Virus record (IMG/VR): IMGVR_UViG_3300044673_000143
Span: 1 to 56,488 of that record
From: a virus
Length of the DNA stretch: 56,488 nt
Direction: 5' to 3' (one strand)
A program made the translations under genes and the position numbers. The notes under the pieces were generated by a model. It had not been told where the DNA came from, did not search any database, and saw nothing but the letters and a program-made list of their open reading frames with translations. Shown in pieces: positions 15,054 to 45,000 of the stretch; the stretch's first letter is position 1; every line of letters begins with the position of its first letter.

Positions 15054-16673
15054 CTAAAATCCTCCCGCTAACATAACAGCCTGTACCTCTGCTAATAATT
15101 GATTCTGTAACAATACCAACGTTGAATTTTCCCCTATCCCACTAACAATACTCCATCGATTCGTATGGAATACTAACTCTACTCCCTGTCCTCCCCTATC
15201 TAATACTAGATTCGTATTCCCGACGATATTATGTCCCGTATTGGCGGTAATCGTGAGTGGATTAATCCCGAATCCCGTGAGTAGAGAGGAGTTATTAAAG
15301 TCGGCTATCTCGATAACATCACTGTTGTTTGGAGACGCGGGAAGGGTGAGAGTGAAAGATCCGCTAGAGGTGTTGCAGAGATAACGGGTATTGGATACTG
15401 CCGTGGTGTTAGCGGTGATGACGGATGTGGTGAGGGAAGATCCTCCACCACTCACATTAACCGTAACAGCACCACCAGAATTAGTCGCCGTTACTCCCGA
15501 CCCCGTGAAATTAAAACTCGTGGCGTTGGATGTGAGATTTGTCCCCTCGTCGGATACGGTGATAGCCGATCCACCACCGGACGGAAGGTTCGTAAGCTGG
15601 CTCCCGTCCACCGCCGGTAACTTTCCCGCTCCATCGAGAACCACCACTTTCCCCGCTGTCGTCCCCGTATCGAGTCGGGCGGTGCTGAGTGTTCCCGTCG
15701 TGATATTCCCCGCGTTGATCGCCGTGATATTGCGTCCGTCACCGGCGGGATAGCGTCCGTCCACGTCTCTTTGCAACAGATCTCCGGGGTCGGTTCCGGG
15801 CTTGAGGAAAGCGGCCGCCCCGAGAGCGATCGACTCGATTAAAGTTCCCGCCGCGTTCACCCGTAGAAATTGAGAGGCGCGGCCGGTGAACGAACTAAAA
15901 GTATCGGCGAGTCCGGTGAAAGCGGAACTTCCCGAGGTTCCCGCGTTATCGTCTCCCCACCCGACCGCGTAATCCCCGTTCGTGGACTTCTTGAGAACTT
16001 GCCCCGTTGTCCCGCCCGGCGGGATCAGTCTTCCTCCCGTCAGGATCGCGGTAATTTGCGCCTGTAAGTTCTGGAAAGCTTGAATAATAGTATTCGAGTT
16101 GGTGATCGCCGTATTCGCTCCCGTGACTAGCCCGAACAGGGGAACCGATCTTACCCACGCGGAAAAACCCGTCCAGCCCTTTACCCCGTCTTTAACGCCG
16201 TAGACGTTATCGCCCGAGGGAGTCCCGGCGATCTCGTCCGCGACTTCCGCCGCGTCAACTTTTAGATCCCCGTCCGAGTCGTAATCGTCCGCGAGCATAT
16301 CGCCCCCGCCCGGAGCGGCCGCCCACTCGTTCCCGCTATAAACTAGATCCCCTCCCGAGAGGAGCGATACTTTTAATCCCTCGAAAGGATCGTAAAATTT
16401 CCACGCGCCCGAAATTACCTGTCCGCTTAACCCGATCGCCGGGCAAGCGATTTTATCGGTCTTTCCCGACCACGCGCCAGACGCGCCCGCGGGAACGATA
16501 TAGAACGAATCGGGGCTTAGTCCGTTCGTCGGGGGGGTCGTGACAATTCGGGAGACGATCGGCGCGCGGGCGACGCTGACGAGTCTAAATAATTCGTTCG
16601 CGACCTGTTCTTTATATTCTTGAGAGGAGGACAGTAATAGCCCGTTACTTCCCAGTATTCTCGCCGTAGTCAT
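15054..16673 (-). CDS. tail fibre protein with DUF2793-like domain
   Basis: A 539-residue fibre protein. Residues about 30-115 resemble DUF2793, with A-P-I-V-S-R-I-V, P-D-S-F-Y-I-V-P-A-G-A-S-G-A-W-S-G-K and W-K-F-Y-D-P-F-E-G-L. The middle is Gly/Thr/Ala-rich with fibre-shaft motifs such as G-R-N-I-T-A-I-N-A-G-N-I-T-T-G-T-L. The C-terminus has an L-T-L-P-A-S-P-N-N-S-D-V-I-E-I head domain and ends L-L-A-E-V-Q-A-V-M-L-A-G-G-F. Its first 29 bases overlap the helicase gene, so receptor genes share a transcript with replication genes, which is uncommon. Confidence 0.7.
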   Translation of the reverse strand: MTTARILGSNGLLLSSSQEYKEQVANELFRLVSVARAPIVSRIVTTPPTNGLSPDSFYIVPAGASGAWSGKTDKIACPAIGLSGQVISGAWKFYDPFEGLKVSLLSGGDLVYSGNEWAAAPGGGDMLADDYDSDGDLKVDAAEVADEIAGTPSGDNVYGVKDGVKGWTGFSAWVRSVPLFGLVTGANTAITNSNTIIQAFQNLQAQITAILTGGRLIPPGGTTGQVLKKSTNGDYAVGWGDDNAGTSGSSAFTGLADTFSSFTGRASQFLRVNAAGTLIESIALGAAAFLKPGTDPGDLLQRDVDGRYPAGDGRNITAINAGNITTGTLSTARLDTGTTAGKVVVLDGAGKLPAVDGSQLTNLPSGGGSAITVSDEGTNLTSNATSFNFTGSGVTATNSGGAVTVNVSGGGSSLTTSVITANTTAVSNTRYLCNTSSGSFTLTLPASPNNSDVIEIADFNNSSLLTGFGINPLTITANTGHNIVGNTNLVLDRGGQGVELVFHTNRWSIVSGIGENSTLVLLQNQLLAEVQAVMLAGGF

Positions 16674-19512
16674 CCCCGAACTCCTCGCGCATTTTGCTTT
16701 CTACCCATTTTTGATTATCGATACCGCCGCAACAACGATTCAAATAATCTTGATAACTTTTCACGTTGTCTTCAGTATACTTCTCCCCGAATACCGCGTG
16801 AAGCTTCCAGAACTTCTTTGGCCACCAATCCGTTAATTTATAGATCCTAGCAACATCGAACCTAGCGGCTTCGGGCTTCTTCCCTTTTTTATACGCTTCC
16901 CGCCGCGCTTCCCGATAGGCGTAATAGATTTTTTTATCCTCGTCCGAGACTAAAAGCTGTAACTTCTCGTTCGCTATCCGCCTCTCTTTCCCCTCGGAAA
17001 TAAACTCGAACCCGCACTCGGGACAGACCCGCGCCGACGCGTGAACCATGCAACCGCAATTCTCGCATTCCTTGACGGGAGCCTCGCCCTTCTCGATGTC
17101 TCCAGATCCCCGGAGAACGGGATAGGTCACGTCCTCGATAAAGCCGTGACGCTTCACGTTTCCCGCCTGATCGAGAACGATACAGTCCTCTTTCCCGAGC
17201 CACTTGCAGATCCGTTGACCGCGGCCGGTCATCTGGATATAAAGGGTCGTACTCTTAGTAGGGCGGGAATGAATAATACAGCTAATTTCGGGCAGATTGA
17301 ACCCGATACCGCAAGTATTGATATTGATAATCCCCCGCGTTTTCAGTCGCGCCACGTTTTTAAATATTTCCCGTCTTTCCTCGTGCGGGGTTTCCGCGGT
17401 GATCGTGGCGACGGGAATCCCCCGATCGGTGAATTCTTTCGCGAGCGAGGCGGCGTGAACTTTCCCCGCGGCGAAACAGACGAACGGACGATCCTGCCCG
17501 AGCCTTTTGTATTCCCCGACGATCGACTGTACCGCCTCAAGACAACGGGTTTCGAGTTCCGCCGCGTCGAAATCACCGCCGGTAGACTTAACTCCTTTCG
17601 TGTCGATCTGGTCTTTAGTAGCGAAGTAGACGCATCCCACGAGCGCGCCGCGGTCGATCATCTCTCTCGGGGTCGGGCCGGTAACTTGTGTCTCGAAAAT
17701 GTCCCCCATTTCCTCCCGCTTCGACAATCGCCACGGGGTCGCTGTCAGTCCGATCACGATCCGGTTATCCGTCGATAATTCATTCCCCGAAAATAAATGT
17801 TCCTGTTTTCTAAGGATTTCCCAAGCGGAATTTAATTCTTGCATTTTCTCCTTCGTTCCCCCGTGGTCGGGATGATGGAGAAGGGCGAGGGATTTGAATT
17901 TAGTTTTCACTTCCTCGAAAGTGACCCGATACCCGAATTCCAATCCTTCCCGCTCGACGGCGATTCCGAGAGTAGCGAGTTCGGCAGAAATGTCTTTTAT
18001 CGAGGTCGTCTGTCTGCCGTTTTTGAGATTATTAAAATTACCCCTGAACCAAAGCGAGTACGCCGACAAATGGCACTCATCGAGAAAAATAACTTCGGGA
18101 TCGAACCATGAAATATCCCGCCTCGCTAGTGTTTGAGTCGTGGCGATCTGCACTTTTCGGGTTCGGTCTTCTTTGTACTCTCCCGCTATTATTCCCGCGG
18201 TTAATCCGAATTTTTCGAGAGCTTCTATCGTTTGCTCGATCAAGCAGGTGAACGGCACGACGATCAGTGTGCGACGTTGTTTCTTGATCGCCGCGTCGTA
18301 AATCATTTGGCAGAATAGAACTGTATTGTGGGTTACGGTAAAATCCCCTAAGAGAAAGCGGCGATTTCCGTCGATTGTAAACCCGTAATAATTATCTTCC
18401 TCCAAAAACTCTAGCTTGAAATTTGTTCTTAAAACATTGCATTTCTGTTTTTCCGTGTATTCTTTCGGGGTTTTCTTGTATTCGGTCTTGATCGGGATAG
18501 TTTCTGTATTACCGCTAATTCTGACACGATAGTAAGTTTCTCCTTTTACTTCTTTGGTTCCCACGCTTGTGAAAAAACCTAGAGAGCGAGCGAGAAAAAC
18601 AATTTGATCCGCGAGTTCTTTTCTTTTTTGCGCTATCTCGTAGCCCCCTTTTATCTGCCAGTGTCCGTCCGTGTCAAGAAGTCCGGCGAGAAGTTCTAAC
18701 CTGACCTCTCTTGAGTTGATTAGATAGTTCTGAGGAATATGCTTGTTTTGGACAAGATCTAAGTCTCTCATCATGTTCAATAAATAATTCTTTCTTCGTC
18801 CCTTCTCTCCCATCGTGATCCTGTGAAGCTGAGAATTCGGGTTGTCGTTCCTTGCATCAGAATAAACTTTCATCCCTAAACGATCGGCGTATTTCTTTAT
18901 ATAGTCGATCAATACAGGATTAGACGTACAGACATCCGTGTGCCTGTGATTGCCATCTCCTAGCCAGATACCGAGGAAGTAGGGATCTATCGTGATGGGT
19001 TTGCTGTCGAATTCTACAGGAACCCGATAGAGCAACATCGAGATCTGAATATGTTTCGGGAGAGAAAGGTACTGATCGATAGAAAAATCGTAAACATCTC
19101 CGTTGATCCATCCCGATTTCGGATAGCTTCTCCCGTTATAAACTAACGAAAGAATGTGGCTACGGTTGCAAGTAAATGGCTCTCCCTTGTTCGGGATTAC
19201 CTTTACCATAGTTTCTCTTCCTCTACAGATCGAATCGACATGACGGGGCTTGCTATCATCCCCCATCAGAATATCCCCTACCTCGATATTTTGCGATAGC
19301 TTCACGCTACCGTCATACATAATAATCGGCGTATCTTTTGCTAGACACTTTCCGTACCCGCAAGGAGCGACGGCTAGAATCCTTTTAAATCCCGATCTGA
19401 GGTTGCCGTAAATCTCTTTTTTAAGAGCTTTCTGATCGGGACGGAGTTGGATCGTCGGGGACGAGATTGTCAGGGTGTTCTTTTCGGTTTCTTGGAATAA
19501 TGTTAGGTTCAT
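16645..19512 (-). CDS. SF2 helicase with P-loop intein and inserted J-domain
   Basis: A 955-codon gene for a DEAD/DEAH-type superfamily 2 helicase that remodels DNA for phage replication or recombination. The precursor holds an intein (residues 56-396) inside the Walker A loop (C-G-Y-G-K | T-V-L-F). The host protein continues with motif Ia, the D-E-C-H box (478-481), a J-domain-like insertion with H-P-D (547-549), motif III T-A-T-P-W (590-594), motif VI G-R-G-Q-R and a C-terminal C-x2-C ... C-x2-C zinc ribbon. The spliced protein would be 614 residues. Splicing is needed to rebuild the ATP site, so the precursor should be inactive. The gene overlaps its upstream neighbour by four bases and the fibre gene downstream by 29. 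Confidence 0.8.
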   Translation of the reverse strand: MNLTLFQETEKNTLTISSPTIQLRPDQKALKKEIYGNLRSGFKRILAVAPCGYGKCLAKDTPIIMYDGSVKLSQNIEVGDILMGDDSKPRHVDSICRGRETMVKVIPNKGEPFTCNRSHILSLVYNGRSYPKSGWINGDVYDFSIDQYLSLPKHIQISMLLYRVPVEFDSKPITIDPYFLGIWLGDGNHRHTDVCTSNPVLIDYIKKYADRLGMKVYSDARNDNPNSQLHRITMGEKGRRKNYLLNMMRDLDLVQNKHIPQNYLINSREVRLELLAGLLDTDGHWQIKGGYEIAQKRKELADQIVFLARSLGFFTSVGTKEVKGETYYRVRISGNTETIPIKTEYKKTPKEYTEKQKCNVLRTNFKLEFLEEDNYYGFTIDGNRRFLLGDFTVTHNTVLFCQMIYDAAIKKQRRTLIVVPFTCLIEQTIEALEKFGLTAGIIAGEYKEDRTRKVQIATTQTLARRDISWFDPEVIFLDECHLSAYSLWFRGNFNNLKNGRQTTSIKDISAELATLGIAVEREGLEFGYRVTFEEVKTKFKSLALLHHPDHGGTKEKMQELNSAWEILRKQEHLFSGNELSTDNRIVIGLTATPWRLSKREEMGDIFETQVTGPTPREMIDRGALVGCVYFATKDQIDTKGVKSTGGDFDAAELETRCLEAVQSIVGEYKRLGQDRPFVCFAAGKVHAASLAKEFTDRGIPVATITAETPHEERREIFKNVARLKTRGIININTCGIGFNLPEISCIIHSRPTKSTTLYIQMTGRGQRICKWLGKEDCIVLDQAGNVKRHGFIEDVTYPVLRGSGDIEKGEAPVKECENCGCMVHASARVCPECGFEFISEGKERRIANEKLQLLVSDEDKKIYYAYREARREAYKKGKKPEAARFDVARIYKLTDWWPKKFWKLHAVFGEKYTEDNVKSYQDYLNRCCGGIDNQKWVESKMREEFGDDYGENTGK
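17788..17928 (-). other. J-domain-like segment inside the helicase
   Basis: Residues about 529-575 (R-V-T-F-E-E-V-K-T-K-F-K-S-L-A-L-L-H-H-P-D-H-G-G, then M-Q-E-L-N-S-A-W-E-I-L) reproduce helices II and III of a DnaJ domain with the invariant H-P-D tripeptide. This tripeptide activates DnaK ATPase in J-proteins. It lies between helicase motifs II and III, a position where an insertion can loop out of the RecA fold. Confidence 0.7.
18325..19347 (-). other. intein with LAGLIDADG homing endonuclease
   Basis: A 341-residue intein beginning with Cys56 (C-L-A-K-D-T-P-I, block A) and containing block B around C-N-R-S-H-I-L, two LAGLIDADG-type motifs (F-L-G-I-W-L-G-D-G and E-L-L-A-G-L-L-D-T-D-G) and block F/G ending F-T-V-T-H-N. 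The C-extein begins with Thr, a usable +1 nucleophile. Both endonuclease motifs keep their acidic residue, so homing into inteinless helicase alleles is plausible. Confidence 0.9.
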
Positions 19513-20477: not shown

Positions 20478-20696
20478 CTAGAAAGTAACTTCCGTGAAAT
20501 CTTCCTTTCTAAAACACCAAAATTTGTATCCCCTAAGCTCGGGGAATTCGGGATCGATCGACTCGAAATGATAGAAGATCCCGATCGCCGTTTTGACGAT
20601 CCCGAGGGGTTTGCATTTCCGAAAAATTTGACCGTAGGAATCTACGCGATAGATCTTGTCGGGGTAAGTCGATTCTCGGTACTCTCCAATAGACAT
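20478..20696 (-). CDS. hypothetical protein, 72 residues
   Basis: Starts at ATG 20696 with GAGGAG nine bases upstream, inside the last 55 bases of the methyltransferase gene. The product is strand-rich and aromatic (M-S-I-G-E-Y-R-E-S-T-Y-P-D-K-I-Y-R-V-D; G-Y-K-F-W-C-F-R near the end). It may be a small partner of the methyltransferase, but nothing in the sequence shows that directly. Confidence 0.6.
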   Translation of the reverse strand: MSIGEYRESTYPDKIYRVDSYGQIFRKCKPLGIVKTAIGIFYHFESIDPEFPELRGYKFWCFRKEDFTEVTF

Positions 20697-21817
20697 CGGA
20701 CGATCTCCTCGTAAGCGTTCGGGGGGAAACAGTTGCCGATAATCTCCGTCGCGAGAGTGACTTGTGGCGGTAGTCGGTAATCCGCGGGGAACGTGCAGAG
20801 CGTGGCGAGGCAACGGGGCGTTAATTTCACGATCTTGATGTATTCGGGCGGGACGGACGGGATTAGCTCGATAACGTCTAGGGTGTGCGAGTGTCCTCCC
20901 CCGCACGTCAGCGTGGGCGCGGGTTCGTGTTCTCCCCTCGGGTTCGTTCTGTCTTTATTCCCCCCGGCGCGTTGCATGAGTACCCGAAGCGCGCCCTGAT
21001 GGGCGGATCGGATCGCGGGGGCGGGACGATACTCGGGATAGCGGAGAGCCTTGCGGTTGTTATCCACGAGGATCGCCTTGAATCTCGCCCCCGACCCCGA
21101 CGCGGTTACGGTCGGTGACGGGGCATCCGCGGGGACTCCCCGAGAGCGTTTCCCGTCCTCGTTAATCAGACAGGTAAAATCGAAATCTTTCAGTCTCCGT
21201 TTCTGCCACTCGGCAAAAGTTGTCTCGGGGCAATCGGGTAAAAGATGCTCGATCGCCGCGTACCACCCGATCTCGGGTTTCGGTTCGGGAAATCGATAGT
21301 CGATATTGTCCCGAGAGGCCACGAGTACAAGCCTCTTCCGGTTTTGCGGAACGCCGTGATCCTTGCAGTTGATCACTTTCTGAAAAGTTCTGTACCCGTG
21401 TTTTTCGAGGCAAGCGTGGATCGCCTTATAAACATCGGACTTTCGATAATCCGAGACGTTTTCGAGCGTGAACCACCGGGGACGGATCGCCTCGATAGCT
21501 TCGATACACGCGTACCCGACATTATTATCGGGGTGCGGGGGGAGTTCCCGACTCCGGGCGTTCGAGTAGCCCTTGCAGACCGGGGACGCGTGAAGCAGAT
21601 CGATCCCTTCCCACCGGCGATAGTCGAACCCGAGCGCGTCGGCCACGGCGATATGATCCCCGAAGTTCTCGCGGTAGACCGCGGCGATCTTCGGTTCCCG
21701 CTCTAACGCGCCGACGATCTTGAATCCGAGCTTTCTTAGAGCGGCATCCGCGCCGCCGCCTCCCGAAAAAATCGTGGCGGCCGTCAACTGTCCCGGACTG
21801 AGTAGGGTTAGTGTCAT
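20642..21817 (-). CDS. DNA (cytosine-5) methyltransferase
   Basis: A 391-residue C5 methyltransferase. Motif I is F-S-G-G-G-G-A-D (17-24), the catalytic motif IV is S-P-V-C-K-G-Y-S with Cys81, motif VI is L-E-N-V (118-121), motif VIII is Q-N-R-K-R-L (158-163) and motif X is G-N-C-F-P-P near the C-terminus. It transfers a methyl group from SAM to cytosine. The usual P-P/S-C of motif IV reads P-V-C. No restriction gene is nearby, so the likely role is masking phage DNA from host restriction. The target-recognition region lies around 170-330. The start has no strong ribosome site. Confidence 0.85.
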   Translation of the reverse strand: MTLTLLSPGQLTAATIFSGGGGADAALRKLGFKIVGALEREPKIAAVYRENFGDHIAVADALGFDYRRWEGIDLLHASPVCKGYSNARSRELPPHPDNNVGYACIEAIEAIRPRWFTLENVSDYRKSDVYKAIHACLEKHGYRTFQKVINCKDHGVPQNRKRLVLVASRDNIDYRFPEPKPEIGWYAAIEHLLPDCPETTFAEWQKRRLKDFDFTCLINEDGKRSRGVPADAPSPTVTASGSGARFKAILVDNNRKALRYPEYRPAPAIRSAHQGALRVLMQRAGGNKDRTNPRGEHEPAPTLTCGGGHSHTLDVIELIPSVPPEYIKIVKLTPRCLATLCTFPADYRLPPQVTLATEIIGNCFPPNAYEEIVRCLLESTENRLTPTRSIA

Positions 21818-21869: not shown

Positions 21870-24716
21870 TCACGTTCCCACGTCGTTCACGTAGCAACTG
21901 CCGAAGGGCAATGTAAATCGGTTCAGGGTTTCCCCGAATCGGGTTTCCGCCTCGATCAGCCAGTTCCCGATCGTGTCGAAAGTTATCCCCACGATCCGGG
22001 CGATCGTGCGGGTTGGAATAATTTCGCCCCCCGCGTCGGCCGGTTCCGCGGTTCGGATCAAAACTTCCTGCCGCTCGTAATCGGGTAGTGCGTCAATATG
22101 GGTTCCGTCCGCGCTGTAAACCGAGGGGAGTTCTTCAGCGCTGACTCCTGATTCCTGACTCCTGAATTCTGACTCCTGACCACTAGACTCGATAATAATT
22201 TCCTCTTCCTCGAATACCGTTTCCTCTACGGCGATCGCCGTTGGCTCTAGGTAGTGCAGTGTTTTTCCCTCTAACCGTCCGTGTCCGGCCTTCTGTAATT
22301 GTTCGAGTAGTTCGAGGGCGAGAGCGGAATTCATTTTCTGTCCGTCGATCTTGCGGGACTGAAATTTTTGATGGATCTCGCGGGTCGTGATCTTGCCCGC
22401 CGTTCTCACGAGATCCCATATTTCATGTAGGATTCCCTGAATCGGGTTCTGGTCGTCGCCGCCGGTAATCCCCTGAATGGCGAGAAATTGATTGATATAG
22501 AAGTCGGTCACGGCGGCCGCCTTAGCCGCGGTCTGCACGGGAATTCGGTAGAGGTCGGTATGTTCGGGATCGTAGATCCAGTTCAATAGATGGATCGAGA
22601 GCGCGAACCGTAAAAACATTTTCATCTGCTTCCCGACATACGCGGACAGCGAGGGATTTTTCGAGCGGTTCAACTTGACGAGATTGTTATAGCGATAGTT
22701 GAGATCCCAAGCGAAATTCTCGCCCTTCTCGGTGAACCAAAGATCGTTGCGCTCTACCCCGTTCTCCCCGACCTCTAGATCGATACCGTTCACCCGATTG
22801 AACGCGTCTAGGATTAGGGACTCGATCGAGTTCATGTCCATCGGCGGGCGACCGGGAACGGGATCGAGTGGTTCGTTAATCAGGAAGTGAAACCGGGAAA
22901 CTAGCCCGTCAACGTCATCGGAAAGATCGAGGTATTTCTGCAATTTCCCGATCTGTATCCCCCCGAGAACGTTGAGGGTTTGACCGTTCAAGGTATAACG
23001 GTTCTCGCGGTTCACCCGGTCAAAAGTAAACTGCAAGGGATCGTTCCACGCGGATAATAGCCTTTGTCGATCGCTACCTTTCCCGCCCGATTTGTACTGG
23101 TTCATCCCGTCGAATAATCCGGTCAGTTCGTCGGCGAGCCATACCGCGCCCTGCCATCGGGATTGTAGGGAGGAGGTTTTGAGAATCGCGTCTAGCGTTC
23201 CCTCGTCGTACACCCACCGTTTCGCCCGGCAGTGTTCCCGCTCGTAGAGGCGCGGGTTAACATCGGCGTTGGTCATGTTCTCGCGCCGTTCGTCGCGGGT
23301 CATTTCCGCCCATTCCGCTTTTAATTGTTCGAGGCGATCGTACTCGCGATCGATCCGATCCTGTTCGATCAGGTCGCGCTCTTTGAGAACACGGTAGATC
23401 TGTTTTTGGGTCGTGGTTTTCCCGCCGCTCGGATAATCTACGTCGGCCATGTAAAAGATCGGGAATTCTTTCCAACACTCGGAAGAGTTCCGCGACGTCC
23501 TCATATTAATCGCGAACCGGGAACCGAGGATCGCGCCCATGACCGGCCAGAGCGAATGAAGTAGCCGGATCGACGGTTGGCGGATCGTGTTAGCCCGAGA
23601 TTCTAGTGCCTCCGCGAGTTTCGGCGGGAGGATCTTGTGTATATCGAGTTCTTTCTGCCGGTAGTGGCTGTTCTTGAGGAAATCCCCGATCGCCGCGTCG
23701 ATCCGATCCGACTCTTCTAGTTCCCGTTCCCTCGCTCTCTTCAGTTCGCGGATGTCGTTCGGTGTTTTACCCGAGGCTTTCGCCCACCCGTGGATCTTCG
23801 CTTCCCATTGGGTGCGGGTTAGGCGTTGCTCGATCGCCGCGTCGATCGCCGCGATGATTTCCTCGATCGTCAATAAATTTTCTTCCGCGGGCTTCACGGG
23901 TTCCCTGACGCGGATCTCTTTCGGGGCATCGACAACGGCCGCTAGAATTTCCTCTTTCGAGATTTTCTTTTCCTCGATCCAGTCGATAATATCGCAACCC
24001 CCGGACTCGGGCAGATGGTTCCAGAGAACGGAATCGGGATAGGCGTACAAGAAACGCGCGTCGGGAAAATCTCGATAGATTCGGGCAACGTGCTTCACTC
24101 CCGGATTATCGCGATCCGGGCAGAGAATTAATTTCGCCCCTTTCAAAAATTCCGAGTGCGATTCTTGCCACTTGCCCGCCCCCCCGAGGCTACAGGTAGC
24201 GACAAACCCCATCGCCTCTAATTTCTCTACCTTGTTCTCTCCCTCGACCACGAGGATCGGGGTTCCCGCGGCGATCGCTTTCCCGAGTCTATCGGCGCGG
24301 TACAGGGGGATCTCGTTATATTCAATACCCTGTAGGTTCCAGATCCAAGTTTTCCCGCCGTCTTTCGAGTGTTGCTGTCTGCAATCCTTTTTCCAGTTCG
24401 CGCCCTCTCGGTAATCCTTGCGGTACACCCGGACGATCGTGCCGTCCCGTAGCGGGGGATAGGCGTAGTGGGTAGTTTTCTCTTTTTTAAATTCTGAAAA
24501 TTTCTTGTCGCGCTTGAGATAGTAGATCGGCTCGCCCGTGCCAGTGGACTTTTTCGATCGCTCCCATCCATCGCCCGGATCGGCTCCCCGTCTACACACC
24601 GAGAGCAGATTTCCCTCGTCCGAGGTATAGCCGAAACAGTAATTAGTCTCGTTCCGGTTCCCGCAATGGGGGCAGGGTTGCAATTTGACGCGGTTCTGTG
24701 TTAGTATTGAGGTCAT
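21870..24716 (-). CDS. primase-helicase with TOPRIM and DUF3987 domains
   Basis: A 948-residue replication protein. The N-terminus has a zinc ribbon (Cys15, Cys18, Cys27, Cys41). A TOPRIM domain follows (V-V-E-G-E-N-K near 160, then L-I-L-C-P-D-R-D-N-P-G near 210). The large central region matches the DUF3987 ATPase family of phage primases, with P-S-G-G-K-T-T as a P-loop-like motif. The C-terminus has a winged-helix-like segment and an acidic linker (E-E-T-V-F-E-E-E-E). It likely primes and unwinds at the phage origin. I use ATG 24716. A GTG at 24758 would add 14 residues but lies in a hairpin. Neither start has a good ribosome site. Confidence 0.8.
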   Translation of the reverse strand: MTSILTQNRVKLQPCPHCGNRNETNYCFGYTSDEGNLLSVCRRGADPGDGWERSKKSTGTGEPIYYLKRDKKFSEFKKEKTTHYAYPPLRDGTIVRVYRKDYREGANWKKDCRQQHSKDGGKTWIWNLQGIEYNEIPLYRADRLGKAIAAGTPILVVEGENKVEKLEAMGFVATCSLGGAGKWQESHSEFLKGAKLILCPDRDNPGVKHVARIYRDFPDARFLYAYPDSVLWNHLPESGGCDIIDWIEEKKISKEEILAAVVDAPKEIRVREPVKPAEENLLTIEEIIAAIDAAIEQRLTRTQWEAKIHGWAKASGKTPNDIRELKRARERELEESDRIDAAIGDFLKNSHYRQKELDIHKILPPKLAEALESRANTIRQPSIRLLHSLWPVMGAILGSRFAINMRTSRNSSECWKEFPIFYMADVDYPSGGKTTTQKQIYRVLKERDLIEQDRIDREYDRLEQLKAEWAEMTRDERRENMTNADVNPRLYEREHCRAKRWVYDEGTLDAILKTSSLQSRWQGAVWLADELTGLFDGMNQYKSGGKGSDRQRLLSAWNDPLQFTFDRVNRENRYTLNGQTLNVLGGIQIGKLQKYLDLSDDVDGLVSRFHFLINEPLDPVPGRPPMDMNSIESLILDAFNRVNGIDLEVGENGVERNDLWFTEKGENFAWDLNYRYNNLVKLNRSKNPSLSAYVGKQMKMFLRFALSIHLLNWIYDPEHTDLYRIPVQTAAKAAAVTDFYINQFLAIQGITGGDDQNPIQGILHEIWDLVRTAGKITTREIHQKFQSRKIDGQKMNSALALELLEQLQKAGHGRLEGKTLHYLEPTAIAVEETVFEEEEIIIESSGQESEFRSQESGVSAEELPSVYSADGTHIDALPDYERQEVLIRTAEPADAGGEIIPTRTIARIVGITFDTIGNWLIEAETRFGETLNRFTLPFGSCYVNDVGT

Positions 24717-24747
24717 AAGAACATAAAGTTTTTGATTGGAATTAGAG

Positions 24748-24771
24748 AACTCGCTCACCGCGAGTTTTTTT
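24748..24771 (+). terminator. plus-strand-oriented terminator hairpin
   Basis: AACTCGC-TCACC-GCGAGTT followed by a run of Ts on the plus strand, just upstream of the primase start. On the minus strand no U-tract follows. It could stop transcripts running antisense through the primase gene toward the immunity region, or shape the primase mRNA leader. Confidence 0.55.
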
Positions 24772-25889: not shown

Positions 25890-26159
25890 TAGGGAAGTTT
25901 TAGGGAATCGATTTTCAGCGGCCGACAGAAGTTAGAAATGGCGAGGCTTTCAGGAACTACATCGACGGACTTAAAATCCGTTGAGGCTTATCACCTCGTA
26001 AGGGTTCGAGTCCCTTCGCCCCCACTGTTTACTACTATTTGAACGGGTTACAGCGTCCGATACGATGATTTAAAGTTGATACAGAAAAAACACTAAATGC
26101 GTCACGACGCGTCCGACTTTAGGGAAGATTTAGGGAAGATAGACGAGCGGATTAGGGAA
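25890..26159 (+). repeat. five TAGGGAA direct repeats flanking the attP core
   Basis: TAGGGAA occurs at 25890, 25901, 26120, 26131 and 26153, always in the same orientation. Two copies lie left of the half tRNA, 11 bp apart. Three lie right of it, spaced 11 and 22 bp. The one- and two-turn spacing on both flanks is what integrase arm-type sites look like. The right group lies inside the first codons of the integrase gene. Confidence 0.6.
25938..26024 (+). other. attP-like 3' part of a tRNA-Leu(UAA) gene
   Basis: The 3' two thirds of a tRNA-Leu are present: anticodon stem ACGGA/TCCGT with loop CTTAAAA (anticodon TAA, 25965-25981), a long variable arm (GAGG...CCTC), T-arm AAGGG-TTCGAGT-CCCTT (26000-26016), acceptor strand CGCCCCC and A (26017-26024). 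The 5' acceptor strand GGGGGCG is missing and the D-arm region is degenerate. It lies between the repressor and the integrase, so it is most likely the phage attachment site that restores the 3' end of the host tRNA on integration. Confidence 0.75.
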
Positions 26160-27209
26160 TCAAATTTAACGTTGCGAAGGGTAGCGATCCGGAGGAAGGG
26201 AGATCGTTTGTTCCTACGGGCGACGCTACCCGATCGGGTGACGGGGAGAAAAAGACAACAGGAATTAAGGACGGGCGCGCCCGCGACGATAGCGGGACTA
26301 AGAGCGGCCAAGATCAAGGCCGATACCCTATCGAGCGAACTTATCCTCGGAACTTTCAAATGGGAAAACTGGCTATCGCCCGAGTTAGTCGCGTCGGGAG
26401 ATAGTTGTAGGGAATGGATCGAGAAACTAACGGCCGACCACTGGAACCGAGTGAAACGAACGAAAAGCCGCGAGAGAAGCTTTCGGGAAGATTATCTCAA
26501 TCCGTACTCGAAACTCCCCCCTAACGCGATTTTAAGCGAGGATCTACTAAGGGAAACGCTCGTCAGAGAGACGAGTCCGGGAGAGGGAAAGACGCGTAAC
26601 CGATACTGTCTAGCCTACACGAGGCTCGCGCGGTTCGCGGGATTGGGAATCGATTTCAACAAATACAGAATACGGTACGAACCGGGGGAACGGTATCTAC
26701 CCGAGGATAGAGAGATAGAGGAGACGATCGACCGGGTGAAAAATCCCGCGTGGAGATGGATAGCCGGGATAATGGCCGCCTATGGATTGCGGCCGCACGA
26801 ACTATTTCATCTCGATCTATCGGGAATGGACGGGGAACCGCCGATTTTGAGGGTTCTGTCGTCCACGAAAACGAGAGAGAGAACGGTGCTACCGTGTCCC
26901 GCGGAATGGGTCGACCGTTGGAACTTGAAAGAAAAGCATTGGCCTGATTTCACGGTATCCCCCGAGACTCACGACAATAAAGATCTCGGGGCGAGGATAA
27001 CGCCGGGGCTAAAACGGAACGGGATTCTATGGACGGGCTACGCTTTCCGGGATTGCTACGTTATCCGATTGGAGAAAGCGGGGTGGCCGCCTAATCTCGC
27101 GGAGAAGATGGGCGGCCACAGTCGGGAGACGAGGAAAAAATCCTATCTCCGGCACGTTAACGATCGGGATCTGATCGACGTGTTCCGTCGGTTGAATCGG
27201 GGGGATTAA
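26097..27209 (+). CDS. int: tyrosine recombinase (phage integrase)
   Basis: A 370-residue integrase for recombination at the adjacent attP. The N-terminal arm-binding region (about 15-60, R-L-F-L-R-A-T-L-P) and core-binding domain precede a catalytic domain with Arg232 (A-Y-G-L-R-P-H-E-L), Lys258, the Y-A-F-R box (Tyr315 in place of the usual His, then Arg318), His341 (G-G-H-S) and nucleophile Tyr350 (K-K-S-Y-L-R-H). The His-to-Tyr change is, to my knowledge, common in cyanobacterial relatives. No Shine-Dalgarno sequence is obvious before 26097. The arm-type repeats overlap codons 7-22, which may link expression to att occupancy. Confidence 0.85.
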   Translation: MRHDASDFREDLGKIDERIRESNLTLRRVAIRRKGDRLFLRATLPDRVTGRKRQQELRTGAPATIAGLRAAKIKADTLSSELILGTFKWENWLSPELVASGDSCREWIEKLTADHWNRVKRTKSRERSFREDYLNPYSKLPPNAILSEDLLRETLVRETSPGEGKTRNRYCLAYTRLARFAGLGIDFNKYRIRYEPGERYLPEDREIEETIDRVKNPAWRWIAGIMAAYGLRPHELFHLDLSGMDGEPPILRVLSSTKTRERTVLPCPAEWVDRWNLKEKHWPDFTVSPETHDNKDLGARITPGLKRNGILWTGYAFRDCYVIRLEKAGWPPNLAEKMGGHSRETRKKSYLRHVNDRDLIDVFRRLNRGD

Positions 27210-35868: not shown

Positions 35869-36040
35869 TATCATTCTTCCGTGTAGAATCCATCGCTACC
35901 GAGTTTCGGTAGACAATGCAGTGATTTCCGTATAGAACCCGATCCCCCCGGCACGAATCGAGAAAAGTCAGCGCGGCCGCCCCCCCGAGAAATACCCCGA
36001 CGATCGCTAGAACCCGCTTTTTCTCCGATAGCTCGCTCAT
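35834..36040 (-). CDS. small membrane or lipoprotein-like protein
   Basis: A 68-residue protein starting in an ATGA overlap with the tape measure stop. A basic N-terminus (S-E-K-K-R) precedes one hydrophobic helix (V-L-A-I-V-G-V-F-L-G-G-A-A-A-L-T-F-L-D-S-C). The helix ends at a cysteine that could be lipidated, although F-L-D-S-C is not a standard lipobox. Two more cysteines sit at the C-terminus. It may act at tail attachment to the cell membrane, or in superinfection exclusion. Unknown. Confidence 0.5.
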   Translation of the reverse strand: MSELSEKKRVLAIVGVFLGGAAALTFLDSCRGDRVLYGNHCIVYRNSVAMDSTRKNDNGEHACYCANR

Positions 36041-39000
36041 CCGAAAAATCTCCTTTTTGTCCGCTCGTTCTGCGCGTTCTCGCGCTCTTTGAGTTGGGTT
36101 AGAGAATACCCCATATCGTTCCGCGATTCTATCGTGATGTTACTGACATTCGTGATCGCGAGAGAGCGATCGGAGGAAGAATTATTCGAGGTCGTGACAT
36201 TATAGCCGGTTCCCCCGACGAATCCCCCGCCGGCGTAATTTTTAACCGGCGCGTTTTTATATTCTAGATAGGATCTGGCCTCGTTCGCGGGGATAACGTA
36301 CTCGTCCTCGTTAGCCACGATCAGCCGGGGATTTCTTCCCCCGCTCATAGACCGCTCGCGCCGGAACGCGGAAACCATATTTTTCTCTACGGGCGCGTCG
36401 CCTCCGATTTTCCCGCCGGAACTAAAGAGGCTAAGTCCCGTTCCGAGGGAATAAGAGGACGCGCCCGTGAAAGATGTCGGGGCGAGCGACGCGAAAGACG
36501 ACGACCCCCCGGTAGCCCCGCCTATGATTCCCGAGACTAAAGCCCCGAGAATTCCCGATCCGAATCCCGATCCGCCCCCGGTCGGGACGGGTGACGCTTT
36601 CCCCCCTCCCCCGAAGATCTGCATTAGTAGTTGATTGGCCGCCATCTCCCCGATCTTCTGTAGGAAGTTGATCAGAACGTTTAGCATCTGTTGCAAGGTA
36701 TCCCGCCCGCCGGTGAACGCGGCCCGTAACAGATCCCCGAACGCCCCTACCGCGGGATTAGCCTCGATAAACGCGGACGCGAGATCGGCCTGTTGCATTT
36801 TATCGAGCGCGGCCGACATCTCCCCGAGTTTTTGCGGGGAAAGCGATCCCTCTTCCGCGTACCGCTTGAGTTCGAGGCGACGGCGCGCGAAGTCCGCTTC
36901 TATCCGGAGTTTTCGGGATTCCCCGGTATTGAACAGGTTCCCGAGGGGGTTCATCCGGTTACTCGCGTCGATACCGTCGGCGATCAGATTGTTGTAGCGT
37001 TCGAGAGCCGTCACCCGTTCTTCCTCGATCGCTCGGGTAGCGGCCGCGTCGCCCCGGATCTGCCCGTACTTGGCGAGTTGATCGTCGAGGGCTTTATAGC
37101 CTTCTAGGATAGCTAGATTCCGCTTGTTCTCCGCGGCGAGGGCGTTGAAAGCGTCATCGTTGCCGGTGTCTTTCAGTAGCCGCGCCCGCGTTTCTTCCGA
37201 GTTTTTAGCGAAACTATCGGTAAGTTGTCCGAGCGATCGGATCTGTGACTGGATACCCTCGCGCTGTTTCTCGATCTCGCGGTTCCCGTTGCGACGGGTC
37301 TGCTCGACTCTTTCCGAGAAAGTTAGATACCCTTTCGAGGAAAGCATTAGATCGGAGGAACTATCGCCCGTGTCCCTCAGTCCGATCTCGGCTTGAATCC
37401 GACTCTCTCGCGTCTGTAAGATCAATCCCGCGATCCGATCGAGGTTTTCCCGTCTCGCCCGTTCGAGCTTGAGTAAGTTTTCGGCCTTCTGATTCTCTAG
37501 CGTTCGTTCCCGGTTAATGCGGATCTGCGTGTCGAGTTCCCGCGCCCGATCGTAGTCGAACGAGGGCAGTGGGGCGAGCGGGATATTCGCCATCGGTTGA
37601 CCCGATAACGCTCCCGAGTATTTCGGAACGTTGCCCGCGTTGTAGTTCGCCCGTTCCTCGGGTGTAAGGGGCTGTAGATTCGGGTTGAGAACGGTGCGGG
37701 CGAATCCCTCCCAATTTTTATAAAGTCCCGAGCGCATCAGAAGACGATCGAATTCCGCCGATCCCGAGGTCTGAACCTGTTGCACTACCGAGGGATGTTG
37801 AATATTATCGGCGTTGACCGTCTCCCGGTACGTGCGGGTTTTCGGATCGTAGGTAGGCGAGGGATCGTATTTATAGATCTGTCCGTTGCCGTAGTCGATG
37901 TAATCCCCGCGCTGTAATGTTCGGGGATTGTTCGGGGTTCCCTGCCGCGTCGCCTCGGACTTCATCGCCCCGGCGTTACCCGCGCCCCCGATCGCCGGTG
38001 CTATTTTCGGGGATTTCCCGCCGGCGATCTCTCCCGATCGGGCGAGGAGTTTCTTGGAATTCTCCAGAATTCCCGCCCATATCTCGTTAAGCGACTTAAA
38101 TGTTAACTGCTGACGCTCGATCTCTTTAGCTATCTGTACCTGTTGCGTCCAGAAATCCCGTAGCTGTTTGAGGCGATTCCGTTCCGCGTCGTAGATCTGC
38201 TCTTGCAGATCCCGCAACTGTCGGGCGAACTGGATCGATTGATCTTGAATATCGAGCGGTTTTGTCCGCAATCCGTCCGCCTCTCCCTGAATCGACGCGA
38301 TTTCATCCCGGTACTGTAGGATTAGCTCGTCTATCTGTTTCTGTAGGGAATTCACGCCGGGGGTTCTACTCCCTAGCATCGATACCCGTAAACGTTGCCC
38401 CTCTAGGCTACGCTGACTCGCCCGAAATTCGTTCTCGGACTCGATAAGCGACCGCTGTAACCCGCGGATCATATCCCCGTAGGCTTCCCGGAATCCCCGC
38501 ACCTCGCGGGACGATTGAATCTGGAAATCCTCGATCGATACCCTCAGATCGACTATCTGTTTTTGAAGGTTCGTGTAGTAATCCACGAGATCGAAAGACT
38601 GATCCCGTAGGGATAGTTTCGCTTGCTCGATCTGAAGTTGGATTCGGGCGATATTCGCTTTAATTTCGAGGGGATCGCCCTTGAGTGTCCCATTAAGCTT
38701 CGATTGCTCGAACGCGAGTTGTTTGTAAAGTTTTCCGAGTTCGATCAGTGTTTGGTCGCGGGCGAAAGTCTTGACCTGACTCGATACGGTTCGGGATGTT
38801 AGCCCGATTAATTTGTTTGTCGCCTCGATCTCGATCGCCGTGGTCGCGTAGAATTCGGCGAGGTCGTTCTGCTGATCCCGTAGCGATAATCTCGTCCGGG
38901 CGATATTCGCTTTAATCCGGGCGATATTGGATTTAATCGGGAGGGGATCATCGACGTTAGCCGCGAGCCGTTCCTGCTCGATCGCCAGTTGCTTGTAAAG

Positions 39001-42000
39001 TTCTTCTAGGGATAGCCGCGTCTCGGACGATTGAAACGAGCGGAGTTTTCCGGTCGGGGTAGAGGAATAGAGTTTTTCCTGTTTCCCGGCGATAAGAACC
39101 TCGTTCCCCGCCTGTTTCTCGTTTATCTGGCGACGCTTCCGCTCGGTAATAATTTCCCGGTTGATCGCCTGAATCTCTTTTTCCGAGGATAGAATATCCT
39201 GTCGGGTAGAGACGTACCGTTTCGCCATCTCTAGGATATTTTTTAGCGCGGCGTTCGATTCGAGATCTCCCGAAAACTCGTCCATGACATCCTCGATCAT
39301 TTTCGGGGAGAGGAGGTTTTTCGCGATCGCCTCGGAAAAACTGCCAACCCCGAGCCGTTCGAGGTCTTTGCCGAAATAAGTGGAGAGGGTTTTATCGGCC
39401 GCTTCGGTGATGCGGGTATTGAGTTTTGCCCCCGTTTCCGTCGCGGTTGTCTGTAGCGAGGCGATTTTCTCTTTTGCCGTCTGTAGCGATTCCTCCCGCA
39501 CCCTGACGTTAAATTCGTACTCGTTAAGCTGTCCCGCGGCGAATCCCTTCTCGTTGCCGATCTGCCGATTCAGGGATTTTCGAGCGTTAATAAAGTCTCG
39601 ATTTTCTTGAGCGTTAAGGGTTCTTTTAAAACCGAACTGAAGTTTTTTGTACTGCTTTTCTTGATCCTTGAGTATATTGAGATAATTCTGCTGTTCGGCT
39701 TTGAGTTGGGCGATTACGGCTTTAAGTTTTGTCGATTTGTCCGTGTATTCGTCTACGGAAACATTGCCTTTTTGATAAGACTCTTCCAGTTTCGCGAGCG
39801 AGCTTTCGTAAGCTTGCAGATCCGCGGCAATACGGGACCCTAGAGAACCGAAGCGTTTATCGATCGCTTCCTGTTCCTGTTTCATCAGTTCTTGTTCGAC
39901 GGTATTCGCCCGCGCCACTCCCGCGGAATCCCCTTTCCCCGCGGCGATCGCCCGTTCCGCGCGAACCTGAGCGAGCTTGTTCCGAAGACCTTGCAGGGAA
40001 TCGATAAATTTATCGATCCCGGTTACATCGGAAAGTTGATCCCTGTATCCCTTTAGGACGGTTTCGCCTTCTTTTAGGGTGTCGTTAATATTCCGAATAT
40101 CCTTGCTCGTTCCGTAGCTATCGAATCCGACTTTTCCCGCTTCCCGGAACGGACTCCACGTAAAGAGCGCGACCGTTTTATCCCACCAGTTCCCCTCGGA
40201 TAGATCTTTTTTGGTTTGTTCCGGCGTGAAAACTTTTTCTAGGAAATTTTGCCGGTTAGATTCGGGCTTGATTTTCCCGAGATCTTCTAATACTTTTTTC
40301 GATTCTTTGATCGTCTGTAGATTGTTACGAAGATCCTCGCTCCCCGCGTTCCAGATCGCGAAGAATAGTTGTAATCCCGCGGTCACGGCGAGAGGGATCG
40401 CCATTACCGAAATAGCCGAATTAAAAACTACCCCCGTCGCTTTCGCTGTCGCTGACAACATTTGCATCCGCGTGGCGGTTTCTCCGGCGCGTACTCCAGT
40501 AGTAAAAAGAGCGGCATTGTACGAAGAAAGGACAAGCTGTCCGAGTCGCGTGGCGGCAATAAATTGTAGGACGGATTTTGTGACTAACCCGATCGTGACG
40601 TTAAGCGCGGCTCTCGCGACAATTAACAAGGCGTCGAGGTTGTCGTTTACCCCCCCTAGCGCGACGTTCAGCAGTTGTAGAGCGGGATAGGCTACCGCGC
40701 CGATCTTCTCCCCGACTCCCATCGATAACTGTTCGAGATTATTCTGATAGCGGTTAATTTCCGCCTGTAGGGTTTTCCCAGATTCCCCGAGTCCCCCCGC
40801 GCTCATCCGCTCGTATTCGGCCGATAACCGGGGGATCACGTCTTGCGATAACAATTGTCCCGCGGACGCTTGCCGGTAGAATTCGGCGGTGGTTAGTCCC
40901 ATCGCTCGGGCGGCGACGATCAGCGCGTCGTAAAGTCCCCCGGACTCGGTTAACTGTTGGGTGAATTCTTCCACCGACAGAACGGAGCGGGAGGCCATCT
41001 GATTGATCGCCCGGAATGTCTCGGTCTGTTGTTGCGGGTTGGTATTGCGCACCGCGAGAGCCGATTGAAATCCCCGGTAGATAGAATCGCCCTGAGCCTC
41101 TAGCGGGGTGTCGGTAGTGACGATCCGGAATTGCGCGTACTGTTTCACGCTCTCTTTGAACGAGATACCGAGTTCGTTAGCCCGATCCCGCAACTGTCCG
41201 ATCGCCTCGTCCGCGTTGTCTACCCCGGCGACATCGAGGTTAACCTTGATTCTCTGTAGCTCGACTAGAGACTGAAGCGAGTTCGTTACCGCTTGCTGTA
41301 CGGTGAAGGGAAGATTTTGAATACCGAAATAAAGCGGCTGTAATAAGAATTCCGCTCCCTTGAGTAGAGCGAATCCCCCGACTACCGCGAGCGCGGCTTT
41401 TCTGAGATTGAACATCCCGCCCGTGGCCGCGTCGAGTTCCTTATCGATCGTCCGTAGTAGTTTACCGGCCGTCGATAGCGAACCTATAAATCCGTCGAGT
41501 TGCGCGACGGCGACGCGGATACCGCTAACGATCCCTCTCGTGAACCCGCTAGAAACTCCCGCTTTCTCGATGCTATCGAGGGTGTTAAATAAATTGTCGC
41601 GTTTTTTGTTCCAATCCCCGAGGATTTCTTCTCGCGTTGTTTTCGGGCGGGCGATAACGGTAGCCCGCTTCATCGCTTGGAAAGCGCGGGGGGAAGTAAA
41701 GGTTCCCGAATCCATCGATCCGAGAACTTCGTCGATAACCTGTAAGCGTTCCCCGCGGTCTAGCCCCATCTCTTTAAGAGCCTGAAGCACCGCTTTTCGG
41801 GCTTCTTTCGACTTCATCCCGACAAAGAAAGTAAAGTCGCTCACCTCTTTATCGAAGCGGGTTTCTAGTCCTAGTCCGAAGCGGATCTGGCGCGCGCCTA
41901 ACGCTAGTCCCTCGTAGAAGAACCGCATCGCTTTCATCGCTTTTTTGGACGGCGACGCGTTCCCGAGTCCCTTGTTCGTCTCGTCCACGATGTCGAGCGC

Positions 42001-45000
42001 GTTCTGGTAGGCGATTTTTTCCGCCTCGTTCGTGGCGACCCCGATCTGTAAACCTTTTTGGAAATTGGACGCGCCGACCTTGCCCGCGGTGAACATCAAG
42101 GTAGACATATCCGCGCCGATAGCGGTAGCGATCGTTCGGAGTTCTCCCTGTTGCTTGAGGAGCGCGACGGATAGCTCGATAAAAATATCCTTACGTTTAC
42201 CGGCGGGCAGGCTCGGATCTTGCCAGAGCTTATAAAGTTCTTGGAACCGCGACATCTGTTGCTTGATCGCGCCGGGTTGCGTCCGCTCTTGAAACATCCC
42301 GTCACGCCCGAGAAGCTTGTCCCAATCGCTCGCGTTCGGGTCTTGTACCCATTCGAGATCCTGTAGCTCGATGCCTTTTTTCTTGGCCAGTTCCCTTGTA
42401 CCGTCCTCGAACGGACGGACTCCCCCGATCTGTCCGTCATAGGTGTGCAACGCGCCTACTGCCGTGAGAAGGAATTTATCCCACAAGATCCCTTCCATGC
42501 CGTAAGTGTCCGAACTAAATTCCTCGTCTCCTGTAGCGATTCGGAATTTCTCGAACATTTTCGGGATGTCGGCCTCGATGAGTCTCCCGAAACGGGACGT
42601 TATCCGCTCGACCATATCGCGCGACATCGGAGCGGAGCTTGCCAGCCCGCTTGCCATCCCGAGACTGTCGCCCGCGTGTAACATCATCCGATCGGGGTTG
42701 AACAAACCCTCTAGGGCTACGGGTTCTCTCCCGCCGTAGTTATGGGTTCCGAAAGCCATCAGCGCGCGCGGTCGGTTTATCCCTCCCCCGGTTCCGATGA
42801 ATTTACCGGCCGCGTCGGGATGCCAGAACCCGTAAATCGGACTGACCCCCTCGGGAGAGTAGTCGGGACGGATAGCGTTCTCGAATCGTTTTCGGAGAGA
42901 GCGATCCTTGTTGCTGTTCGGGTGTAGGGCTTGGTAGCCCGTGTTCATAATCGAGTCGAGGTGTTCCCGTCTCGCGTAGATCAGGAATTTTCCGCCCTGC
43001 TTCTGGTTGAGTTCAAGGCGTTTATTAATATCTCGGAATAGCGCGTCGATCTGACCGATAAAGACTCTCGCCTCTTCCGCGGTTCCTATTTCCAATCCCT
43101 TGATCAGGTTTTTCCCGGATCGCTTTCCTTTCCACGAGGGCGATCGGTTCCCGAGCGCGTCATCGAGATCGTCTATAGCGTTCTCCCCGATCTCGCGGGT
43201 GTTCAGTCTCGCGGAATCTAGCTCGTTATTCGCTCCTTTTGTTAGGTTCCCGATCGAGCGTTGAATATCCCCCTGTAAATTCTCGATATTAATAACGAGG
43301 GCGTTAAGGTTGCGATTGAGTCCCGATGTGTCGAGTTCGGGGTTCGCTCGAACTTTAGCGATCTCGCCCTTGATTTTCTGTAGTTGCCGGTAGTATTCCG
43401 CGAGCTTGCGGGGATCGGGTTCCGCTTCCGCGAGCGAGCCTTTCGCCATTTTACGGACGGTCGCGACCGACTGCCCGATCGTCGTCACGAATCCTTTATC
43501 GATCGGGGAGGCCGCGTAACTCATCCCCGCTAACGCCTCGCGTCCCGCTTTCGTGCGTCCTTTTTCGTTCGTGGCGAGGAGAAGTTTTATTAACGTCTCG
43601 GGCGGGACTTTCGAGATAATCGCCTTCCAGTAATCATCGACCGAGGGCGTTTTTTTACTCCCGCCCGGCAGTACGTTCAATCCCTGATTGCGAGCGATCT
43701 CCCGTAGTCGGTCGCGGGTGTAATATTCCCGCTTGAAAGGGTCAACGCCGGGGGGGAGCGCGGGCAGATTATTCGTGATTCTAGAGAGAGAATCGGTAAG
43801 TTTAGCGAGGGACGCGCCTAGTGCCATCCCTTTCGCTTCTAGTTCGACAAGTTTTTCGGGGGCTAACGCTTTCGGGGCGATCGCTTTTCTGGCCGTCCCG
43901 AATAGGGTTTCTACGGCGAATCCCGTTACTGTCGTCGCGGTAGCGTAAGCGGTTCCCGCGGATTCTCCTTCCACGATCGAGTTTGCAACGCTTTGTATCG
44001 GCGCGATCACCGCGTTAGCTATCTGTTCGGTCGCCATGTTCACGCCCTGAATAATCCCCCGGATAGCGGGGTTCGCGTCGGCGGGAACCGCAATATCTAG
44101 CGCGTCTTTGATATGCGCGGCTAGTTCCTGGACGTATTTATCGCTTCCTGTTTTGTAAAGCTCGTGAAAAACGTTGTATAGCGATTGATAGATCCCGTGA
44201 GCGACATCATCGGGCAATCCCGCGAGGGTCATCGCCCCCAACGCCATCGGCGCGACAACGGGAGCCGCTATATTCTTCGCGGCCATCGCCGCCGGTATTC
44301 TCCCGAGAAAAGCGGATTCTACCTTTCGGGCGGCGATGACGAGCCGATCGAAGATCTGGATCGTCGCGTTCGCCCCCTTCCAGAGCGATTTATCCGAGAG
44401 ATTGAGGGCATTAAAGATCTCGCGCTTGGCCGTCTGTAGCAGTAGACTCGCGGTATCCTCGTTCCCCGCGATGTTGACGATCTCGTTATTGCGGTCGGGG
44501 GTCTGTAGGCGATTGACGGCCATCTCCCGGAGTCTGCCGTCAATGGTGACGGGGGTAGAAACTTTTCGGGCGACGATCTCCGCGTCGATCGAGTCGATCA
44601 GTTTCGAGATACCGCTAACGTAAGCCTCGACAATTTCGGCCGTCTTTCTTTCTAGGGGCGTTTCTAGATTGGCGTAAACCTCTTGTAAGGCCGATTTCAT
44701 GTTCTCGGCCTTGATCTCGAATTTTTTAGCGATCTCGGGATCTTCTAGTGCCGATTGTATTTGTGACGATTTTAGGAGATCGGGGACGCGGGCGAATTCC
44801 TTGCCCCGTTCTGCCGCGAGATTCACGAAATCGAGGATCGCGTTAATACCGTAGCCCGCGGCGGCGAGTTCCCCGAACCCACTCGTATCCTGTCGGTTCG
44901 ATACCTCGTACCGGACGAGACTTTCTAGCAACTTGTCCAAGAATCCCGCGAGGCGTTTGTAGTTCGTTCCTTCCCCGAGGGCTTTTTCTTTGCCGATCCT

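Follow-up and report, generated by a model that had tools for sequence, protein, structure and literature searches.

A helicase gene in the IMG/VR virus record IMGVR_UViG_3300044673_000143 raises the question of whether a J domain can be built into the motor of an SF2 helicase and, if so, what it does there. We analysed positions 1 to 56,488 of this record (56,488 nt; hereafter the window). An earlier note on this DNA, made from its letters alone, had proposed such a domain between helicase motifs II and III, with host DnaK recruited to the replication fork or origin. Here, we describe the enzyme, the evidence for the domain, its fate among relatives (L numbers denote loci) and the roles that it might have.

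The helicase and its intein

The 955-aa ORF (Table 1) matches Pfam ResIII and Helicase_C as well as phrog_16 'DNA helicase' (PHROG, 1.1e-70), and it contains the complete SF2 DExH set: Walker A (after intein removal), DExH, TATP and QxxGRGxR. In a profile search, the closest protein of known structure is E. coli RadD (YejH; 6jde/7r7j, E 1.1e-21). The best NCBIfam model is RadD NF053632 (92.4 bits, E 2.1e-26), with 92 bits against an equivalog cut-off of 720 bits, which makes the protein RadD-like rather than RadD. As in RadD, a pair of RecA domains bearing SF2 motifs precedes a zinc ribbon, for which the matches are weak; unlike the window helicase, RadD lacks a J domain, and its motifs II and III are only 25 residues apart. 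Two zinc fingers are present in RadD. RadD is reported to speed up RecA strand exchange and to bind SSB, and by itself it has displayed no helicase activity on branched DNAs. By its sequence kinship, the window helicase is a RadD-like accessory type of repair or recombination. The gene at 21870-24758, with DUF3987, weak Toprim and (in PHROG) helicase and primase matches, is the likelier replicative one. For these two reasons, the fork or origin named in the earlier note is a guess, while the HPD-intact J domain within a helicase, on which its proposal of DnaK recruitment was built, is present.

Close to the helicase lies a C-5 cytosine DNA methylase gene (20642-21817, minus strand). Elsewhere in the window, a tRNA-Leu (taa) directly precedes an integrase gene (25937-27209; phrog_1, 1.7e-10) and could mark an attachment site or function as a phage tRNA. 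A 3969-aa protein (36037-47946, minus strand) carries a TMP_3 tape-measure domain at residues 2237-2407; this is a very long tape measure for a record of this size.

Table 1. Features of the helicase gene, in order along the protein after the whole ORF (window positions).
Feature	Residues	Position	Strand	Evidence
RadD-like SF2 helicase ORF, 955 aa, with intein and J-domain insert		16645..19512	-	ORF call, Pfam, PHROG, NCBIfam
Intein with LAGLIDADG homing endonuclease, in Walker A (GYGK/T)	56-396	18325..19347	-	Hom_end_hint 1.5e-19, LAGLIDADG_3 1.3e-10
Helicase motif II, DECH	478-481	18070..18081	-	Motif reading
J domain, whole	about 504-571	17800..18003	-	Pfam DnaJ; J-only model, three helices; Foldseek, VIA
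J helix I	about 505-514	17971..18000	-	J-only model, pLDDT about 52; E-L and G invariant to L154/L155
J helix II	about 532-545	17878..17919	-	J-only model, pLDDT about 80
HPD tripeptide, loop before helix III	547-549	17866..17874	-	Sequence; HPDxGGxK invariant in five HPD-bearing rows
J helix III	about 554-569	17806..17853	-	J-only model, pLDDT about 80
Helicase motif III, TATP	590-593	17734..17745	-	Motif reading
Second RecA domain, Helicase_C	672-768	17209..17499	-	Pfam 7.1e-14
Zinc-ribbon-like CxxC...CxxC, as in RadD	814-839	16996..17073	-	Weak matches, weak RadD zinc-ribbon alignment

The intein is recognizable by its Hint match, an N-terminal C56, a C-terminal H395-N396 and the empty site in relatives. 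As it lies inside Walker A, the ATPase of the helicase is predicted to need protein splicing. The element is carried by L001, L004, L005 and L007-L009, the truncated L003 and L006 end at the same junction, and it is absent from L002, L010 and other short relatives. Intein and J domain are unrelated elements. Across L001-L058 and L154/L155, motif II reads DECH in intein-bearing copies and DEVH in intein-free ones (DEAH in L154/L155), an association of DECH with the intein that may reflect shared descent rather than coupling.

The segment between motifs II and III

Pfam DnaJ (PF00226, curated cut-off 27.8 bits) matches the whole protein just under this cut-off (25.9 bits, E 1e-5), and exceeds it with the segment alone (31.8 bits, E 1.5e-7) and in a scan of the record (31.7 bits, E 9.6e-9). 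Searching the PDB with the segment (phmmer) returned the polyomavirus T antigen 1faf (E 1.3e-4) and human DNAJA1 (E 1e-3). A model of residues 492-584 shows three helices in J order with HPD in the loop, at a mean pLDDT of only 61. The top two Foldseek matches of this J-only model are 1faf (E 0.07) and Tim14 (E 0.29), each with probability 1.00, and VIA gives Z 6.2 and 5.4 for the same two, with J domains in about half of 44 rows; a VIA Z below 8 is alone no proof. Judged by these sequence matches and this model, the segment between DECH and TATP is a true J domain, and the H-P-D tripeptide with its helices, read there by the earlier note, is real. The interval that the note had assigned to it, 17788-17928 (residues 529-575), contains helix II, HPD and helix III; helix I lies upstream, extending the domain to about 18003. 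The E. coli DnaJ positions R27 and F47, which contact DnaK, are S and M in the window J domain.

Structure prediction, which the note had proposed as a check, thus bears out the segment alone as three helices matching J domains and stops there: an AlphaFold2 full-length model of the intein-free, HPD-bearing L010, built from 14 rows, reached pLDDT 44 and was discarded. A profile of all 13 J segments found no convincing match in the PDB (best E 0.04, to a non-J protein), because nine of the 13 rows lack HPD. Only four of the 13 segments match Pfam DnaJ, and these are the HPD/PPD ones. CysS_C, DUF3496, Intimin_C and other low-scoring Pfam names on these segments were taken as noise.

The distance from DExH to TATP is 103-108 residues in J-bearing relatives and 22-31 in J-less ones (31 in the L195 type; 22 in L202 and L206), a range read from 15 of 21 distant loci together with L066 and L067. 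Five of the 21 distant loci (L196, L203, L207, L209 and L211) and L065, all without a motif pair readable by script, were left out of it; L065, from Cr-LKS4, was read by eye and has no J domain. When aligned to RadD, profile positions 138-236 (about 99) face RadD residues 121-145. With 25 residues there against about 99-108 here, the J segment has been inserted and does not belong to the RecA core.

How widespread is this arrangement? The pattern HPDxGG ... TATP, scanned in viral contigs in its HPDxGG form and over one spacing range only, occurs in 46 stretches, and in 12 of these it belongs to a helicase in the right frame: ten are of the window's family and two, L124 and L144, are further cases of the fusion for which the earlier note had suggested a search. 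Three further stretches (L110, L125 and L149) lack a DExH box and have TATP in frame by chance. With the segment as tblastn query, no J-bearing helicase was found among the 60 of 235 matches listed from 50,697 phage records, nor among the 15 of 462 matches listed from 72,556 plasmid records; H61 and L269 are stand-alone J proteins rather than J-bearing helicases. L269 (2614-3099, plus strand, on another viral contig), a phage protein, has its J domain, with HPDHGG, at the C terminus. In genome contigs, one relative (L107) was found; its 3-kb contig belongs to a Flavobacteriaceae MAG, which we do not take as a host assignment. In Cylindrospermopsis phage Cr-LKS4 (L270, OQ625504.1), the closest phage isolate, the homologous helicase is J-less. 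Elsewhere, this phage genome encodes four identical-scoring J domains in small proteins, at 81-82 kb and 93 kb on opposite strands; these separate domains are a possible in-trans counterpart of the built-in one. In the open-licence literature, we found no description of an SF2 helicase with a J domain within its motor, in line with the earlier note's view that the fusion is uncommon.

Retention and loss of HPD among relatives

The helicases L154/L155 (on the same contigs as L144/L124) are about 40% identical to that of the window and have the insert at the same site with HPD intact. The J insert is old and of common origin in the window family and L154/L155. Five HPD-bearing rows share invariant positions throughout the domain: EL and G in helix I, TF, E and K in helix II, HPDxGGxK in the loop, and Q, N, A and W in helix III. 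Their HPD codons vary synonymously (CAT/CAC, CCC/CCA, GAC/GAT), and this combination of an invariant HPDxGGxK with synonymous codon changes indicates that HPD is kept by selection where it is present.

Most close relatives have lost it. The loop is covered by 58 of 62 viral loci (L059-L062 end short of it and were dropped; L105/L106, L107 and L154/L155 stand outside this count). HPD is intact in nine of the 58 (L001, L003-L010), including L001, which is identical to the window across 559 matched residues, and it is replaced by PPD in one, L002, which is close to the window. In the remaining 48, a common 4-residue deletion removes HPD, leaving a loop of HAESKE or YAESKE; the lysines of helix II are retained in these copies. 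Each of the six HPD/PPD-type records contains exactly one DnaJ match, the helicase, and none of the ten longer HPD-less records, which may be incomplete, contains another DnaJ match.

The body of the domain remains constrained after this loss. In the HPD-less clade, the N-terminal RecA domain, the J region and RecA2 have pN/pS values of 0.104, 0.078 and 0.060, and the linker that follows the J region has 0.241, as calculated from 780 pairs of distinct sequences, which are not independent. Parsimony assigns 122 synonymous and 27 nonsynonymous changes to the J region, and 493 and 85 to RecA2. Comparing L010 with HPD-less rows, pN/pS is 0.268 in the J region and 0.050 and 0.071 in the RecA parts. 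Given the constraint within the HPD-less clade, the domain body kept a function after HPD was lost. As 49 of 58 loci lack HPD while purifying selection persists, DnaK stimulation is not the family-wide role; with most close relatives lacking HPD and keeping the rest of the domain, chaperone recruitment is probably a partial role.

A tree built with the insert left out (49 rows, of which the J-bearing part makes up 43 distinct rows) has L154/L155 as the first branch among J-bearing rows, with a root that is uncertain because the outgroup branches are long. The window group (HPD, with L002 as PPD) stands apart from the HPD-less group, and the HPD-bearing L010 is nested within the HPD-less clade (support 94/88). 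A single loss of HPD is barely not rejected (AU p 0.053). The deletion junction is common to all HPD-less loops, so that a single deletion, combined with recombination at L010, explains them most simply; HPD may instead have been lost twice, or regained through recombination.

Possible roles and known counterparts

To our mind, there is an even chance that the domain was ancestrally a DnaK-recruiting module in cis and became an HPD-independent docking or structural module in the sister lineage. In this reading, a RadD-like SF2 helicase from freshwater tailed phages acquired the domain in a single, ancient insertion into a loop at its surface, between motifs II and III, and an ATPase for DNA repair or recombination thereby came to carry a co-chaperone module of class-C type in cis. 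The window lineage, with HPD and the helix II lysines intact, would most likely still recruit and stimulate host DnaK at the DNA site of the helicase, where DnaK could remodel a protein complex or aid the folding of the helicase itself. In the sister lineage, the HPD loop would have been deleted and the selected three-helix body would act as an HPD-independent docking or structural module. That the series of intact (window, L154), PPD (L002) and deleted (48 loci) copies records a cis co-chaperone motor switching from DnaK remodelling to HPD-free docking is plausible, at somewhat less than even odds. The J domain, its insertion site, the origin that it shares with L154/L155 and the loss of HPD under continued constraint are shown, and the contact with DnaK, its client and the docking role are what we infer; against a DnaK role speak the small share of loci with HPD (nine of 58), the PPD of L002, so close to the window, and the S and M at the positions of R27 and F47. 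As J analogues without HPD may contact Hsp70, loss of HPD is no proof of lost Hsp70 contact.

Such analogues (ICP22 and a designed sequence), which bind or stimulate Hsc70 according to a 2026 review (PMC13254874), together with the helix II lysines that persist in HPD-less copies, would allow these relatives to bind DnaK through helices II and III with their function unchanged. We consider this improbable, as the pN/pS of the J region between L010 and HPD-less copies (0.268, against 0.05-0.07 in the RecA parts) suggests a change of role. A docking module from the outset, never linked to DnaK, would leave the HPD of the window as an inherited relic, the J fold having been adopted for contact with SSB, a recombinase or a primase, or for self-assembly. 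This seems to us less likely than not, although HPD is absent from 49 of 58 viral loci with the body constrained, no substitute J protein occurs in ten HPD-less records, and a precedent exists in TbPam18 (HSD), which is reported to be a J-like protein of mitochondrial DNA replication, probably acting without Hsp70 (PMC11349236). HPDxGGxK, however, is invariant from the window clade to L154/L155 through synonymous changes, unlike a relic. That the segment is a tolerated, functionless passenger is very improbable: an inter-motif loop can take additions and most copies have lost HPD, but the J region (0.078) is as constrained as the RecA domains (0.104, 0.060), with the following linker at 0.241. 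Least credible of all is that the segment belongs to the RecA fold and carries HPD by chance, since HMM and PDB sequence matches, the J-only model and the 25-residue gap of RadD speak against it, even if the full-length model is too weak to dismiss it on structural grounds.

Phage J domains as such are known. Rki of phage RB43 is an HPD-bearing J domain that works with host DnaK (PMC3486835), and J proteins are also encoded by jumbo phages (PMC7824862) and moraphages (PMC12619734). Rki and similar phage proteins stand alone, whereas the window J domain lies inside a helicase; PMC13254874 reports 49 unique class C sequences from phages, 48 of which lack any further known domain. For the HPD-less relatives, a parallel is found in TbPam18/TbPam16, an HPD-less J fold taken into DNA replication (PMC11349236); these are eukaryotic, separate mitochondrial membrane proteins outside any helicase. 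The HPD-less sister clade is a ready natural control for the window lineage; it also makes it possible to test whether a J domain has changed its role within one protein family, as reported for TbPam18.

The polyomavirus T antigen is an SF3 origin-binding helicase. The window protein and the large T antigen are both viral DNA helicases that carry a J domain of the HPDxGG type, and that of T antigen (1faf) is the best match to that of the window in both sequence and fold. A polyomavirus helicase with a J domain is already known (PMC8894888 and PMC13254874). Its J domain is N-terminal (PMC8894888), whereas that of the window is nested in the SF2 motor; the window helicase, being SF2 with an internal J domain, is not of the T antigen type, and the two combinations are likely the result of convergence. 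Should the window protein stimulate DnaK, a bacterial virus would have its own counterpart of the polyomavirus T antigen: a DNA motor with its own chaperone recruiter.
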